Part shown: in pieces, positions 13,185 through 39,482 of the stretch
How the letters are laid out: the number at the start of each line of letters is the position of its first letter
Numbering within the stretch: the stretch's first letter is position 1
Origin: Arthrobacter sp. 31Y
GTDB lineage: Bacteria > Actinomycetota > Actinomycetes > Actinomycetales > Micrococcaceae
Direction of reading: 5' to 3'
Assembly: GCF_000526335.1 (NCBI RefSeq)
Contig: NZ_JAFW01000001.1
Coordinates: 2,480,001 to 2,544,000 of the forward strand
DNA length: 64,000 nt
Position numbers and translations under genes: made by a program
The notes under the pieces: model-generated
Databases searched by the model: none
What the model was told of the DNA's origin: nothing
The model's input: only the letters and a program-made list of their open reading frames with translations

Positions 13185-14120
13185 ATGCTGACAGTCATTG
13201 GTGAAGCCTTGGTGGACGTCGTTCAACGCTCCTCGGGAATTGAGGCGCACGTGGGCGGGAGTCCACTGAACGTTGCCGTCGGCTTGGCGCGGCTGGACCA
13301 CCCGGTCCAGTTCATCGGACGCTACGGCAGGGACGCGTACGGCGATTCCATTGCTGCGCACCTCCGTTCCAGCTCGGTGATGGTTCCGGTGCCGCCGGAC
13401 GAGAAGCCAACCAGCGTGGCCACCGCGCAGATCGACGACGACGGCGCCGCCACCTACGCCTTCGACCTCGCTTGGGAGCTTCCCGGGCTCGCCGGACGGT
13501 TGCCGCTCATGCTGCAAGGCTCCACTCTGCTGCACACCGGATCCATTGCCACCTTCCTGGAGCCGGGCGCCGCGGAGGTGATTGCCGCCGTCGAGCATGC
13601 CCATCCGAGCAGCACCATCAGCTTCGATCCCAACTGCCGTCCCAGCATCATCACTGATGTTGAGTATGCGCGAACCCAGGCCGAGCGCTTCGTGGTGCTG
13701 TCCGACGTCGTGAAGGCCTCGGACGAGGACCTCGAATGGCTGTATCCCGGCGTTGATCCGGTGGAATCCGCGCGCCGCTGGCTGTCTTTGGGCGGTGAGG
13801 AGGGACCGGCTTTGGTGGTGGTGACGCGTGGTTCACGTGGTCCGTGGGGCATCACCCGGGCAGGAGAAACCCAGATTGCCGCGCCAACCGTGAACGTGGT
13901 GGACACTGTGGGCGCAGGGGATTCGTTCATGGCAGGGCTGCTGTCCGCCATTGTGGACCATGGGCTGGACGGCGCGCAGAACCGGTCTGATCTCCGGGCG
14001 ATGCCAGTGGAAACCCTGGCAGCCATCATGGATCATGCCACTCGTGCGGCCGCCGTCACGGTGTCGCGGGCGGGCGCGAATCCGCCCACGCGGGCTGAGC
14101 TCAACCACGGAGTGGCATAG
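13185..14120 (+). CDS. PfkB-family carbohydrate kinase (fructokinase-like)
   Basis: A ribokinase-fold protein of 311 residues. MLTVIGEALVDVV starts the first strand, GGSPLNVAVGLARL is the N-terminal PfkB pattern, and DTVGAGDSFMAG near residue 240 is the C-terminal signature with catalytic Asp246 and the anion hole. An in-frame GTG at 13176 is an alternative start; neither has a strong ribosome site. It probably phosphorylates fructose or another free sugar. It stands alone, three bases from a convergent stop. Confidence 0.88.
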   Translation: MLTVIGEALVDVVQRSSGIEAHVGGSPLNVAVGLARLDHPVQFIGRYGRDAYGDSIAAHLRSSSVMVPVPPDEKPTSVATAQIDDDGAATYAFDLAWELPGLAGRLPLMLQGSTLLHTGSIATFLEPGAAEVIAAVEHAHPSSTISFDPNCRPSIITDVEYARTQAERFVVLSDVVKASDEDLEWLYPGVDPVESARRWLSLGGEEGPALVVVTRGSRGPWGITRAGETQIAAPTVNVVDTVGAGDSFMAGLLSAIVDHGLDGAQNRSDLRAMPVETLAAIMDHATRAAAVTVSRAGANPPTRAELNHGVA

Positions 14121-35452: not shown

Positions 35453-35739
35453 TGCCGATCATCGTGGACATTGACGTCATGCTGGCCAAGCGGAAAATGC
35501 CCGTAGGAGTGCTCGCTGAGAGGGTAGGCATCACGCCGGCCAACTTGGCTGTACTTAAGAATGGCCGCGCGAAGGCTGTGCGTTTTACTACGCTCGAAGC
35601 GCTGTGTGAGGTGCTGGAGTGCCAGCCAGGGGATCTGCTGCGGTGGGAATCTGAAGATCGCTGGGATAGCGGAGACCCATCTGCCGGTGGGCCAAGTCCA
35701 TCAGTTCCCTCGTCCCAACCGGCTACCCAGGAGTCATGA
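35452..35739 (+). CDS. YozG-like XRE-family regulator
   Basis: A 95-residue protein. Residues ~1-66 form a compact Cro/CI helix-turn-helix (VMLAKRKMPVGVLAERVGIT, then PANLAVLKNGRAKAVRFTTLEALCEVLECQPGDLL). The tail is Ser/Pro-rich and probably disordered. It overlaps the DUF2975 gene by one base of the stop. It most likely binds the inverted repeat upstream of the operon and the membrane protein may control it. Confidence 0.88.
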   Translation: MPIIVDIDVMLAKRKMPVGVLAERVGITPANLAVLKNGRAKAVRFTTLEALCEVLECQPGDLLRWESEDRWDSGDPSAGGPSPSVPSSQPATQES

Positions 35740-35806
35740 ACGGGCTCTCGGTCAGCAACGCGTCACCCACCTGAATCCGTGCCAGAGCACCTCAAATTCT
35801 CCGTCC

Positions 35807-36010
35807 TCAGGGTACCGCTTCGAGGCTGGATGATGAGCTCGGCTGGATTGAAAAGAAGAGCGGGGAACGCAACCAACCTTCGGATGCGCCTACCGTTACT
35901 ACGTTGGGGCGCTCCGTGCCGATTGAGGTGATGAGCTGCGCGTGTGCCCCGCTCTCGTAGCTCAAAATCCGGGCCTCGGGATCGTGGGCAGGTGCGAAGC
36001 CAAGATCGGC
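35807..36010 (-). pseudogene. Remnant of a Gfo/Idh/MocA-type oxidoreductase
   Basis: Read leftward between stop codons at 36011 and 35807, the frame gives ADLGFAPAHDP and then YESGAHAQLITSIGTERPN and VVTVGASEGWLRSPLFF. That run matches the C-terminal beta-sheet pattern of Gfo/Idh/MocA oxidoreductases (Y-x-S-G-A, two strands, then a GxEGW turn). There is no start codon or Rossmann domain. The rest of the 359-nt gap (35740-36098) shows nothing else except an AT-rich promoter-like patch near 36034-36062. Confidence 0.5.
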
Positions 36011-36098
36011 CTAAAGCCAGCGCGGTCAGCACCATAATTGAAATGTTCGGTAAAATAGCATTGTCCGCCGCCGGTGGAGATGATATGTTTTCTGAACA

Positions 36099-37217
36099 AT
36101 GAAGGAAAAGTTGGGAAGCCAAGCGCGAATGGATGGTTCGGACGAGCCCAAAACTCTGAGTGAAGTTGTTCGACGTTGCGTAAGCCTGATTTGTGCCAAC
36201 CTCCCCGATGAGTGGCTGGCCGAGGCAGGCTCTGAAGTACCAACAGGAGCCGGTGTGGCTGCTGATGCCATTGTGCGCATCACAAGCCCCGATGGCGTAC
36301 AGGCGACATTGGTTTTAGAGGCCAAGCGCCTCATAGAACGCCGCGACGTTTCTTCGGTGATCACTCAGCTACGGACAGCGACTGATCCCTTTCAGAACGT
36401 CACCGGTGTAGTTGCAGCCCGATATCTCACTCCGTCCGTACGCGAGATGTTGACTGAAAGAGGCGTGTCCTACGCAGATGCAACGGGAAACGAATTCCTC
36501 ACAGTGTCAAGGCCAGGCATACTCGTCATGCAGTCGGGAGCTGACAAGGATCCTTGGCGACGCCCAGGCCGTCCACGCGGCACCCTCAAGGGTGCCCCTG
36601 CGGCAAGAGTTGTTCGGGCCTTGGTGGACATTCCTGGGCCTTGGAGAATCAGGGAGCTCATCGAGGCTTCCGGCGCGTCAACGGGCGCTACTTACCGTGT
36701 CGTCGGGTTCTTGGAACGCGAAGGTTTGCTGTTTCGTGACGAAGCGGGAAGTTTGAATCTCGGGAGTTGGCGTCAGCTCGTGCAGGAATGGGGGAAGGAC
36801 TACGGCTTCGTGCGCAGCAATCGCATCACGAGCTACATTGAACCCCGCGGATTGCCCGCGCTCTTACAAAAAGTCGCCGCAGCTGGAGACTTAGAGTACG
36901 CAGTAACAGGCAGCCTTGCGGCAAGCGAGTGGGCAGCGTACGCGCCAGCTCGAGCAGCCCAAATTTACGTAGCCGATGCAGCCAAAGCAGCCCAGCGATG
37001 GGGTCTCCGACCAGCTGAATCTGGCTCGAATGTGCTCCTTGCTGAGCCCGAAGCTGGTTTCGTTTTTGACCGTTCACGAACAAACCGTGACGGGATTGTC
37101 GTTGTTGCGCCTGCTCAGGCGGCGGTAGATCTTTTGACGGGGCCCGGACGAAACCCCTCCGAAGCCGAAGAACTCATGGATTGGATGGAACGGAATGAGC
37201 TTTCTTGGCGGCAATGA
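36099..37217 (+). CDS. AbiEi-like type IV antitoxin with nuclease-like N-terminus
   Basis: A 372-residue, three-part protein. Residues ~20-145 have an alpha/beta region with D56...LEAKR (74-77), resembling a PD-(D/E)xK core, and SYADATGNEFL (124-134). Residues ~165-235 are a winged helix (RVVRALVDIPGPWRIRELIEASGASTGATYRVVGFLEREGLL in order). Residues ~245-372 match the AbiEi-type C-terminal domain (YAVTGSLAASEWAAYAPAR, IYVAD, NVLLAEP, APAQAAVDLLTGPGR). It overlaps the next gene by 23 nt. ATG 36129 is a possible later start. In known AbiE pairs the first protein neutralises the toxin and represses the operon; the nuclease activity is not established. Confidence 0.72.
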   Translation: MKEKLGSQARMDGSDEPKTLSEVVRRCVSLICANLPDEWLAEAGSEVPTGAGVAADAIVRITSPDGVQATLVLEAKRLIERRDVSSVITQLRTATDPFQNVTGVVAARYLTPSVREMLTERGVSYADATGNEFLTVSRPGILVMQSGADKDPWRRPGRPRGTLKGAPAARVVRALVDIPGPWRIRELIEASGASTGATYRVVGFLEREGLLFRDEAGSLNLGSWRQLVQEWGKDYGFVRSNRITSYIEPRGLPALLQKVAAAGDLEYAVTGSLAASEWAAYAPARAAQIYVADAAKAAQRWGLRPAESGSNVLLAEPEAGFVFDRSRTNRDGIVVVAPAQAAVDLLTGPGRNPSEAEELMDWMERNELSWRQ

Positions 37218-38052
37218 TGAACTGCTGATCAAGGCGAGGTCAGCGCTTCTGGACGCACTTCATGCCCTCAGCGAGTACGGTCCCGCGGTTATTGTCATTG
37301 GCGCCCAGGCCGTCTACATGCATACAGGAGATGCGCCTGTGGCGTTGGCGGAAGCAACCAAGGACAGCGATTTAGCCATTGATCCGCGGACGCTCCGCTC
37401 GGAGCCCTTGCTTGAAGAAGCTATGGAGCGTGCCGGATTCTATCTAAATCCGTTCAGCAATCAACCAGGTGCTTGGATGAACGCTGGGGGCATACCTGTT
37501 GACCTGATGGTGCCGGAAGCTTTGGCTGGCGCCGGGGCGAAGAGCGTCCGAGGCGGCAGGATACCTCCACACGACAAGAAGGCGACTCGGAGGGCCTTGG
37601 GCCTGGAAGCCGCAGTAGTCGACTTTTCCGAGATGGAGATTCTGGCGCTGGACGAAAGTGACAGTCGTCGATGCAAGGCTCTTGTAGCGGGGCCTTCAGC
37701 GCTCCTTGTAGCCAAGCTGCATAAAATCGCTGAGAGGCTCGGCTCGCCTGGCCGTTTGAACGATAAAGACGCCCACGACATCTACCGCCTCCTCGTGAGC
37801 GTAGAAACGGCCGAGTTTGCCGACCGACTGTGCGAGCTGCTTGAGAACTCAGTCAGCCAAGCGGTGACGCAAGAGGGGCTTCAACACCTGAAGTCACTTT
37901 TTGCCAGCGGCCCGGACGCTGTTGGTTCGATAATGGCGGGTCGTGCCGAGGAGGGCATCGGTGACCCCTACAACGTATCCCTCTCAGTGTCCTTGCTGGC
38001 CGCTGACGTCCTCGTTGCGGTAAACAACGAGCGAATCGATGCTGTGAAGTAG
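37195..38052 (+). CDS. AbiEii-like nucleotidyltransferase, putative toxin
   Basis: A 285-residue protein with a DNA-polymerase-beta-type nucleotidyltransferase core: VIGAQAVYMH (residues 34-43) is the G-x-x motif region and TKDSDLAID (55-63) gives the paired acidic residues. PSALLVAKLHKIAERL and KDAHDIYRLL (~165-200) match the conserved Lys and Asp segments of AbiEii-like proteins. It starts inside the preceding gene (23-nt overlap), typical of toxin-antitoxin pairs. AbiEii toxins transfer nucleotides to RNA in related systems; here this is inferred from the fold. It could instead be a non-toxic nucleotidyltransferase. Confidence 0.7.
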   Translation: MSFLGGNDELLIKARSALLDALHALSEYGPAVIVIGAQAVYMHTGDAPVALAEATKDSDLAIDPRTLRSEPLLEEAMERAGFYLNPFSNQPGAWMNAGGIPVDLMVPEALAGAGAKSVRGGRIPPHDKKATRRALGLEAAVVDFSEMEILALDESDSRRCKALVAGPSALLVAKLHKIAERLGSPGRLNDKDAHDIYRLLVSVETAEFADRLCELLENSVSQAVTQEGLQHLKSLFASGPDAVGSIMAGRAEEGIGDPYNVSLSVSLLAADVLVAVNNERIDAVK

Positions 38053-38126
38053 TTGAATTTTCCGGCCCGCCGCCTATCCCGGATTGATTATCGGTTTCGA
38101 GAACCGTAGTCCAATGTTCCTAATTC

Positions 38127-39482
38127 CTACTTCCCCTTCTTCCCGCCCCGCTTAGCCGCAGCGTTCATCGCCGACTTCACCGCTGGCGGCAGCCCCGCCG
38201 TCTCGGTTTCCGGCTCGGCGACGGTCCCGCGCCAGCGAGCCAATCCCTTCATGCCGTGGTAAATCACCAGGGCTGCAGCGGACCCGAGCGCAATGCCCGT
38301 GAACTTCAGCTCGCCAATGGTCCAGGTGTAGTCAGCAATGCCGATGATCAGAGCAACAGCAGCGGTGGTCAGGTTGATCGGGTTGGAGAAGTTGACCTTG
38401 TTCTGCACCCAGATCTTCACGCCGAGCACACCGATCATGCCGTACAGCATGGTCGCGGCGCCGCCCAGGACACCAGCCGGGACGGTGGCGATGAGTTCGC
38501 CGAATTTCGGGGAGAAGCTCAGCAGGATGGCGAAGATACCGGCCACCCAGTAGGCCGCCGTCGAGTAGACCTTCGTAGCGGCCATAACGCCGATGTTCTC
38601 CGCGTACGTCGTGGTACCGGAACCGCCGCCAAACCCGGCAAGTACCGTCGCGGCGCCGTCGGCCATCAGTGCGCGGCCGGAGACGCCGTCGAGGTTCTGG
38701 CCTGTCATGGCGGCCACCGACTTCACATGCCCCACGTTCTCAGCCACGAGGACCAGCACCACGGGCACAAACAGCCCCACTACGCCAATGTGGAATTCGG
38801 GCGTCTGGAACAGCGGCAGGCCAATCCACGCGGCGGCGTCCATCTTTTCGTAGGACACCTCGCCGCGCATCATCGCCACGAGATACCCCACCACAACACC
38901 CACCAAGATGCTCAGGCGCCCCAGAATCCCACGGAACAGCACAGAAACCAGGATGATCGTCACCAGCGTGATCAGCGCGGTGACGGGTGCGAGGTCGAAG
39001 TTCGCCTTCGCGGCCGGTGCCAGGTTCAGGCCGATCAGCACCACAATCGCGCCGGTAACGATCGGCGGCATGAGCCGGTTGATCCATTCGGCGCCGAACT
39101 TCTGGACTACCGCACCAATAAGCGCCAGTACGACGCCGGCAAGCACCACGCCGCCCAAGGCGCCACTCACGCCATACTGCTGCTGGGACGCCATGATGGG
39201 GGCGATGAACGCGAAGCTCGAACCCAGGTAGCTGGGCACGCGGCCCTTGGTGATTACCAGGAAGAGAAGCGTGCCGATGCCCGAGAAGAGGAGGGTGGTT
39301 GCCGGCGGCATGCCCGTGATGATGGGCACCAGGAAGGTGGCGCCGAACATGGCAACCACGTGCTGCATGCCGATGCCGATGGTCAGGGGCCAAGCGAGCC
39401 GCTCGTCGGGAGCCACCACGTGGCCGGGACGGATGGACTTGCCGTTGCCGTGGAGCTTCCATTTGGTGCCGAGCATGCTCAT
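38127..39482 (-). CDS. uraA: Uracil-xanthine permease (NCS2 family)
   Basis: A 451-residue, 14-helix transporter. HVVAMFGATFLVPIITGMPPATTL is the family's N-terminal region. LVLVAENVGHVKSVAAMTG is the NCS2 signature with the conserved Glu, and GGGSGTTTYAENIGVMAATK follows with the second substrate Glu. The tail is Lys/Gly-rich. GAGGAAGG lies before the ATG. Uracil is the likely substrate because the divergent neighbour is a RutE-like reductase of pyrimidine breakdown. Confidence 0.93.
   Translation of the reverse strand: MSMLGTKWKLHGNGKSIRPGHVVAPDERLAWPLTIGIGMQHVVAMFGATFLVPIITGMPPATTLLFSGIGTLLFLVITKGRVPSYLGSSFAFIAPIMASQQQYGVSGALGGVVLAGVVLALIGAVVQKFGAEWINRLMPPIVTGAIVVLIGLNLAPAAKANFDLAPVTALITLVTIILVSVLFRGILGRLSILVGVVVGYLVAMMRGEVSYEKMDAAAWIGLPLFQTPEFHIGVVGLFVPVVLVLVAENVGHVKSVAAMTGQNLDGVSGRALMADGAATVLAGFGGGSGTTTYAENIGVMAATKVYSTAAYWVAGIFAILLSFSPKFGELIATVPAGVLGGAATMLYGMIGVLGVKIWVQNKVNFSNPINLTTAAVALIIGIADYTWTIGELKFTGIALGSAAALVIYHGMKGLARWRGTVAEPETETAGLPPAVKSAMNAAAKRGGKKGK

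Follow-up and report, generated by a model that had tools for sequence, protein, structure and literature searches.

A 64,000-nucleotide stretch of the Arthrobacter sp. 31Y genome (contig NZ_JAFW01000001.1, positions 2,480,001 to 2,544,000; hereafter the window) carries two genes that an initial annotation, made from the sequence alone, had described as an AbiE-like two-gene system. Our analysis supports this description. The two reading frames lie where they had been placed and overlap as annotated, with a gene for a regulator (gene 1) upstream of a gene for a nucleotidyltransferase (NTase; gene 2). Gene 1 may start at 36129 and not at 36099, the identical deposited protein (P0001) being 362 residues long. 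The features of the locus are collected in Table 1.

Table 1. Features of the two-gene locus and its flanks, in window coordinates
Feature	Position	Strand	Length or basis
Gene 1, three-domain AbiEi_2-type regulator, probable antitoxin	36099..37217	+	372 aa (362 aa if start is 36129)
Gene 2, NTP_transf_8/GSU2403-type nucleotidyltransferase, probable toxin	37195..38052	+	285 aa
Overlap of gene 1 end and gene 2 start, 23 nt	37195..37217	+	Open reading frame coordinates; related loci overlap similarly
53-bp dyad, probable operator	36045..36097	.	Pattern in 49/78 valid upstream stretches
N-terminal PD-(D/E)xK-like domain (NTD), residues ~1-145 (D56, E74, K76, Q90)	36099..36533	+	hhalign, Pfam, residue counts
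Winged helix-turn-helix, residues 168-214	36600..36740	+	PF09339
AbiEi_2-type C-terminal domain, residues ~214-372	36738..37214	+	PF09952 in relatives
Decayed C-terminal half of GFO/IDH/MocA-type oxidoreductase, left flank of cargo	~36025-35591	-	tblastn with intact sister copy L171:783-1910 and its Pfam families
Permease gene (PF00860), right neighbour of the pair	38127-39482		

By its family matches, gene 2 is an NTase of the NTP_transf_8/GSU2403 type and not a canonical AbiEii (DUF1814) protein. The initial annotation had described it as an NTase with AbiEii-like motifs; both motifs are present (VIGAQAVYMH at residues 34–43 and TKDSDLAID at 55–63) and the enzyme class stands, but the family has to be revised. 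NTP_transf_8 (PF12281) was matched at E ≤ 0.01 in 102 of 120 aligned gene 2 sequences (best 6.1e-12), the window protein alone scoring 17.8 bits, below the 26.3-bit cut-off. The AbiEii family PF08843 (DUF1814) reached E ≤ 0.01 in four of the 120, and at E ≤ 1 the matches listed for the window protein include none to it. Fourteen residues are invariant in all 120 sequences: G36, T55, K56, D57, D59, D103, K174, K177, R181, R187, K191, D192, H194 and D195. The genome of the window does encode a separate AbiEii protein, its only PF08843 match, which scores above the cut-off and lies on a second contig away from the pair (G000:C2:76507-76992, L178). At four distant loci (L047, L048, L051 and L060) the downstream NTase matched both PF12281 and PF08843 at E ≤ 0.01, which suggests that the two families grade into each other.

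The protein encoded by gene 1 was described in the initial annotation as having an AbiEi-type C terminus and a winged helix, and both were recovered. The winged helix is of the IclR type (PF09339); it was matched in the window protein with E = 4e-4 and 20.5 bits, just below the 22-bit cut-off, and at E ≤ 0.1 in 103 of 121 aligned gene 1 sequences, among which are the window protein itself and the record identical to it. AbiEi_2 (PF09952) was matched at E ≤ 0.1 in 75 of the 121, with a best value of 1.5e-6. In four members, chosen because they were already labelled AbiEi_2, the match was above the gathering threshold and spanned residues ~214–347; for the window protein alone no PF09952 match was listed. 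The profile of the gene 1 family matched no solved structure. When PADLOC was run on the 121 sequences it returned CasR in 3 and 1, type IV Cas6 in two, CARF3 in one and PDC-M05A in one (2.2e-5); these matches are scattered and were not taken as membership. One NTase locus (L192:1432-3152) has as its partner an XRE-type helix-turn-helix regulator that matches gene 1 in the C-terminal stretch only (profile positions 241-349). The genome that carries it, G364, also holds a gene 1 copy whose NTase is split (L036).

The pairing of the two genes recurs in other genomes. Contigs were scanned with gene 1 motifs, and in the best 80 of 114 loci, which include draft assemblies and relatives that are not independent of each other, an NTase or a piece of one lay directly downstream of gene 1 in 76. 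The NTase start, as modelled, falls inside gene 1 in 68 of the 76, giving overlaps of 14–29 nt. As judged by single-frame coverage, both genes were intact at 66 of the 80 loci, two loci were cut by a contig end (L105, L127) and one had both genes broken (L129). Gene 1 was intact with the NTase broken or missing at 10 loci (L063, L064, L071, L088, L101, L102, L109, L116, L125 and L126), while the reverse state, an intact NTase with a broken gene 1, was seen once (L096). Such decay, in which the enzyme goes and the regulator stays, is what a toxin–antitoxin pair would be expected to show.

As a cross-check, each gene was used separately to search overlapping samples of 296 and 384 genomes. The NTase profile matched 13 and 15 genomes respectively, and gene 1 was also present in all but one of them, the exception being an NTase fragment. 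This search added six intact gene 1 copies with a broken or absent NTase (L035, L036, L037, L039, L216 and L219; L033 reads the same as L116), and in neither sample was an intact NTase found beside a broken canonical gene 1. Fifteen distant loci were also inspected; 10 showed an NTase-like motif by eye, and in seven of these 10 the downstream protein matched PF12281 and/or PF08843 (E ≤ 0.01). The occurrence of the pair across many Actinomycetota records is more than chance, and the two genes are strongly co-inherited.

Upstream of gene 1 lies a 53-bp dyad, the probable operator. Its outer arms have the form GTTCRG..AA / TT..CYGAAC and enclose an inner palindrome of the TCCG-N7-CGGA type. Of 78 valid upstream stretches, 49 contain the pattern, that of the window among them; 47 of the 49 are distinct, 45 are exactly 53 bp and four are 54 bp long. 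Shuffled upstream stretches gave the pattern 0.12 times on average and at most once, in a run on 79 stretches of which one (L119) was mis-cut. Because the pattern fixes GTTC[GA], TCC, GGA and GAAC by construction, the evidence consists of the constant length and the free columns only. Four free columns are well conserved among the 45 sites (T44 45/45, T45 45/45, C48 44/45 and C31 42/45). In 43 distinct sites, 54 cells had changed on both sides of a pair compared with 33 in shuffles, none of 500 of which reached that number, in a count where the pattern itself dictates seven of the 19 pairs and one pair (12 with 41) is set one column off; sliding the pairing partner lowered the number to 10–28. 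Other pair measures were weaker: the percentage paired exceeded that of shuffles by very little (17 of 500 reached it), and further pair types did not exceed them (125 of 500). Elsewhere in the 64-kb window the pattern matched once more, at 13925-13982, with a different length. A sigma-70 promoter scan gave no promoter at the dyad, and the −10 box inside it was read by eye only.

At the divergent loci L133, L135, L136 and L140 the 53-bp pattern is absent, and palindromes occur there of the GTTTC..GAAAC type (GTTTCAC...GTGAAAC at L136, similar at L135), possibly a co-evolved operator. Upstream of L111, L120 and L126, the sequence TATTATCYGAACATG places a −10-like box 6 nt ahead of what appears to be the start codon, which suggests leaderless transcripts in part of the family.

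The surroundings of the pair fit the idea of an insertion-prone spot. The decayed oxidoreductase fragment noticed by the initial annotation is indeed a broken piece of a GFO/IDH/MocA-type gene, and a sister genome has the intact counterpart. On the other side, in seven sister stretches similarity starts at 38126-38134, with different genes beyond it; the spot that houses the pair is one of variable cargo. The GC content at third codon positions (GC3) is 0.55 in gene 1 and 0.64 in gene 2 versus 0.85 in the adjoining permease gene. Gene 1 matches were found in 36 of 149 genomes, namely its own, 29 of the same genus, one of the same order and five others; the 29 and the one are confined to the winged helix, while the five others cover more of gene 1. 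Relatives of gene 1, which alone served as query, are also encoded in 24 plasmid records, all at less than 60% identity. A horizontally acquired, mobile two-gene module with a sporadic distribution is the best reading of these data. An Rfam scan of 35500-38300 gave no match. At the same spot beside the permease, one sister genome has a gene for a 203-aa protein that combines a MarR-like helix-turn-helix with a Pol-beta nucleotidyltransferase, followed by a 126-aa open reading frame (L172:6826-7817), and this cargo is another NTase-type two-gene pair.

The N-terminal domain of the gene 1 protein had been singled out in the initial annotation as an extra region with a D...ExK core, atypical of the short canonical AbiEi antitoxins and possibly a built-in nuclease. 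To compare it with PD-(D/E)xK folds, a wide NTD alignment (A4) was made with 117 rows, 114 of them distinct and three repeating others; NTDs were chosen by a D..G[NT] motif and loci lacking it were dropped, which makes the invariance of D127 and G130 in A4 a matter of construction. Profiles for NucS and Mrr were built from genomes related to that of the window. The NucS members were picked by phmmer, and their profile is narrow, covering close relatives only. In pairwise hhalign comparisons, whose values are not calibrated on a database, A4 aligned with NucS at a probability of 91.8 (score 42.9) and with Mrr at 40.0 (score 28.5). The controls stayed far lower, at 0.3 for the NTase, 0.2 for the C-terminal half of gene 1 and at most 1.7 (score 17.7) for 20 column-shuffled profiles, and the true pair NucS versus Mrr gave 18.0 (score 25.1). 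With close relatives only as query the values were 49.0 for NucS and 9.8 for Mrr, against at most 1.4 (score 18.3) for shuffles. In the alignments, E74-x-K76 is in register with both NucS and Mrr; D56 is in register with the Mrr aspartate, but four residues off that of NucS.

Other searches gave fainter signals. Single NTDs among the 117 matched NucS_C six times, Mrr_cat five times and PDDEXK_13 twice at E ≤ 0.1; in all, 22 Pfam families were matched by single NTDs, of which three are nucleases and 19 are not obviously so, mostly with single matches (NMB0537_N 3, RTC_insert 2). A profile search of the PDB with the NTD gave weak matches to NucS (E 0.49) and EndoMS (E 0.88); the phage capsid proteins that topped it (E 0.018 and 0.047) were taken as chance. 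At the profile level, then, the NTD looks like a PD-(D/E)xK domain of the NucS/Mrr-like kind. The extra region proposed by the initial annotation is real, but the domain is no special fusion of this locus, as distant AbiEi_2-type regulators carry it too: among 14 distant members in A4 (L046-L059; E ~8e-12 or lower against the profile), D, E and K are in place in seven. This suggests that the NTD belongs to the usual build of these regulators, a statement that does not cover PF09952 as a whole because all distant members were found with the full-length profile. No description of a nuclease-like domain in AbiEi or COG4861 antitoxins was found in titles and the opening parts of abstracts, subscription journals and preprints lying outside the search.

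Both outcomes that the initial annotation had offered for this domain, a built-in nuclease or one that has lost catalysis, are represented in the family as judged by the state of the triad. The window copy has D56, E74, K76 and Q90, and its nearest relatives widely keep them (113/119, 117/121, 114/121 and 93/121), with the stretch just behind the core held tighter still (D127 121/121, G130 121/121, N131 120/121). Across the 114 distinct NTDs the strict D-E-K triad is kept in 74 and missing in 40, and even a relaxed triad (D/E/Q at 74, K/R at 76) is missing in 29, of which at least one broken case (L052) looks misaligned and not lost. Counted over all 117 rows, repeats included, 75 have the strict triad and 30 lack the relaxed one. 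A quick tree of 90 sequences, made from the protein outside the NTD, calls for at least 21 changes of triad state. An intact NTase accompanies 21 of 27 scorable triad-broken rows and 55 of 62 triad-intact rows, and no association between the state of the triad and that of the NTase was detected (Fisher p 0.20; median p over independent pairs 0.69). The triad, complete in the window copy, has gone repeatedly in relatives where both genes persist, and the family therefore does not depend on a built-in nuclease activity. Catalysis is possible in the window copy, but it is not the feature that the family preserves.

This recurrent loss, in a domain that stays alignable, speaks for an NTD with a structural role only, or a vestigial one, in which the repressor would retain an inactive nuclease for dimerisation or as a DNA clamp. 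The partner of the L192 NTase, which shares the C-terminal stretch of gene 1 without the NTD, points the same way, but a strict triad in 74 of 114 distinct NTDs is in our judgement more than drift would leave, and we consider a wholly structural NTD a real possibility that probably falls short. The opposite extreme, an active two-enzyme defence in which a catalytically competent NTD cleaves invading nucleic acid and the NTase/winged-helix part regulates or amplifies this, would fit the resemblance to NucS and Mrr and the full set of residues in the window and its nearest relatives. It fits poorly with the numbers of NTDs lacking even the relaxed triad, with the many changes of state on the tree and with the intact NTases beside broken triads; the motif residues of the NTase, unlike the triad, are invariant. 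We regard this explanation as unlikely.

How the pair relates to described systems was judged from excerpts of the papers cited. Pairs of COG4861 and COG4849 have been named as siblings of AbiE (Dy et al. 2014, PMC3985639), Rv0837c, the putative MenAT2 antitoxin, has been described as COG4861 (PMC7319586), and the Rv0837c–Rv0836c pair as a possible AbiE member (PMC3968373). The link of gene 1 to COG4861 rests on a table that equates PF09952 with COG4861 (PMC7251935). The MenAT2-type pair accordingly resembles ours in having a COG4861 regulator with an NTase partner, a likeness drawn by description and not by sequence, and differs in that its toxin is classed as DUF1814 while gene 2 matches PF12281. 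The family to which gene 2 itself belongs is that of the NTP_transf_8/GSU2403 nucleotidyltransferases.

AbiE of Streptococcus agalactiae (AbiEi COG5340, AbiEii COG2253/DUF1814) shares with the locus a bicistronic layout with the regulator first, overlapping genes, a winged helix and an NTase partner. Its promoter contains TGTTGCTTTTA-N27-TAAAAGCAACA, bound by AbiEi (PMC3985639), a long inverted repeat (TGTT...AACA) whose ends and span are similar to those of the 53-bp dyad. The two systems differ in the family of the toxin, in the overlap (4 nt in AbiE versus 23 nt here) and in the antitoxin: the winged helix is N-terminal in the COG5340 protein and internal in gene 1, whose relatives match AbiEi_2, and the AbiE regulator family is described as sharing no sequence identity with COG4861 (PMC3985639). 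At the residue level there is a parallel with MenAT1, whose toxin MenT1 is a tRNA nucleotidyltransferase. MenT1 accepts phosphate at T39 and is inactive when it carries D41A or K137A (PMC11375011); gene 2 has T55-x-D57 and K177-x14-D192 spaced as T39-x-D41 and K137-x14-D152 of MenT1, and from this spacing alone we infer that the residues are equivalent. MenA1, in contrast, is a 68-aa protein with no apparent DNA-binding domain, and gene 2 has no demonstrable profile match to DUF1814. NucS/EndoMS and Mrr, finally, are similar to the NTD in profile over the core, with E-x-K in register, but gene 1 joins this domain to a winged helix and an AbiEi_2-type C terminus, and the triad is often absent among relatives.

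Taken together, it seems to us rather probable that the locus is a horizontally acquired toxin–antitoxin module of the AbiE/MenAT-like type, from the COG4861-type (AbiEi_2) branch, with the NTD as an accessory nucleic-acid module whose catalysis is optional. Its toxicity, RNA target, mode of neutralisation, autorepression, part in phage defence and NTD role we infer as follows. Overlapping genes behind a dyad operator would yield an antitoxin that is also an autorepressor (gene 1) and a candidate NTase toxin (gene 2). By analogy, gene 2 probably adds nucleotides to RNA, such as tRNA 3' ends, and would thereby halt growth. The winged helix of gene 1 probably binds the 53-bp dyad, its predicted operator. 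Of the gene 1 domains, the C-terminal one most likely restrains the NTase, because it is shared with the L192 partner, which lacks the rest. It might do so by helping T55, the invariant residue beside D57, to become phosphorylated, as T39 does in MenT1. The NTD probably contacts nucleic acid, to sense or to position. A role in phage defence is plausible by kinship only.

Several observations weigh against the toxin–antitoxin assignment. Growth of M. smegmatis was not detectably impaired by MenT2, which is the toxin in the COG4861 pair MenAT2 (PMC10435456). Neither PADLOC nor NCBIfam recognised either window protein, and no relatives of gene 1, the gene searched there, were found in phage and viral collections. 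The dyad pattern is missing from 29 of the 78 valid upstream stretches, which include all of L132-L140 and nearer relatives such as L083 and L093. The decay count comes from loci found via gene 1 motifs, in draft assemblies and among kin that are not independent, where assembly errors in single cases are possible. Compared by hhalign with a DUF1814/AbiEii profile of 16 proteins, gene 2 reached a probability of 0.8 (score 20.5), which is within the controls (shuffles up to 1.0 and 20.6, the gene 1 C terminus 1.5 and 21.6), and the match was rejected; the alignment nevertheless placed GAQ...TKDSDL of gene 2 on the GG...T.D.DL stretch of AbiEii. The strict AbiEii motif hG[GS]x9-13DhD was not found in gene 2, which reads I-G-A at 35–37 and D57-S-D59 with 19 residues between.

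The MenT2 result also speaks for there being no toxin–antitoxin pair at all, gene 2 encoding a harmless enzyme that modifies RNA or a metabolite and gene 1 the regulator of its transcription, and no published function was found for GSU2403 or PF12281, the literature search, which lay outside subscription journals and preprints, giving one passing mention of GSU2403 and nothing on PF12281; but a sporadic, mobile distribution, loss of the NTase beside an intact gene 1 at 10 loci against one locus the other way round, overlapping genes and a dyad of the autoregulation type make this improbable.

COG4861–NTase pairs had already been named as siblings of AbiE. The present analysis recognises a NucS/Mrr-like domain with recurrent loss of the triad, and a 53-bp dyad that is built like the abiE repeat but belongs to a regulator family said to be unrelated. 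For the toxin–antitoxin module favoured here, no account of what triggers the COG4861–NTase antitoxin family was found in the literature excerpts. As a tentative idea to which we give a low chance, COG4861-type antitoxins might form a large 'armed' or 'sensing' class, in which a NucS-like PD-(D/E)xK module would recognise, and with an intact triad process, invader DNA or damaged ends, whereupon the protein would leave its 53-bp operator and the NTase toxin would be freed. If so, the lineages in which catalysis has repeatedly been lost would be those that have retained recognition alone. The findings on the NTD and the dyad give testable hypotheses on how the COG4861 branch is controlled and triggered.

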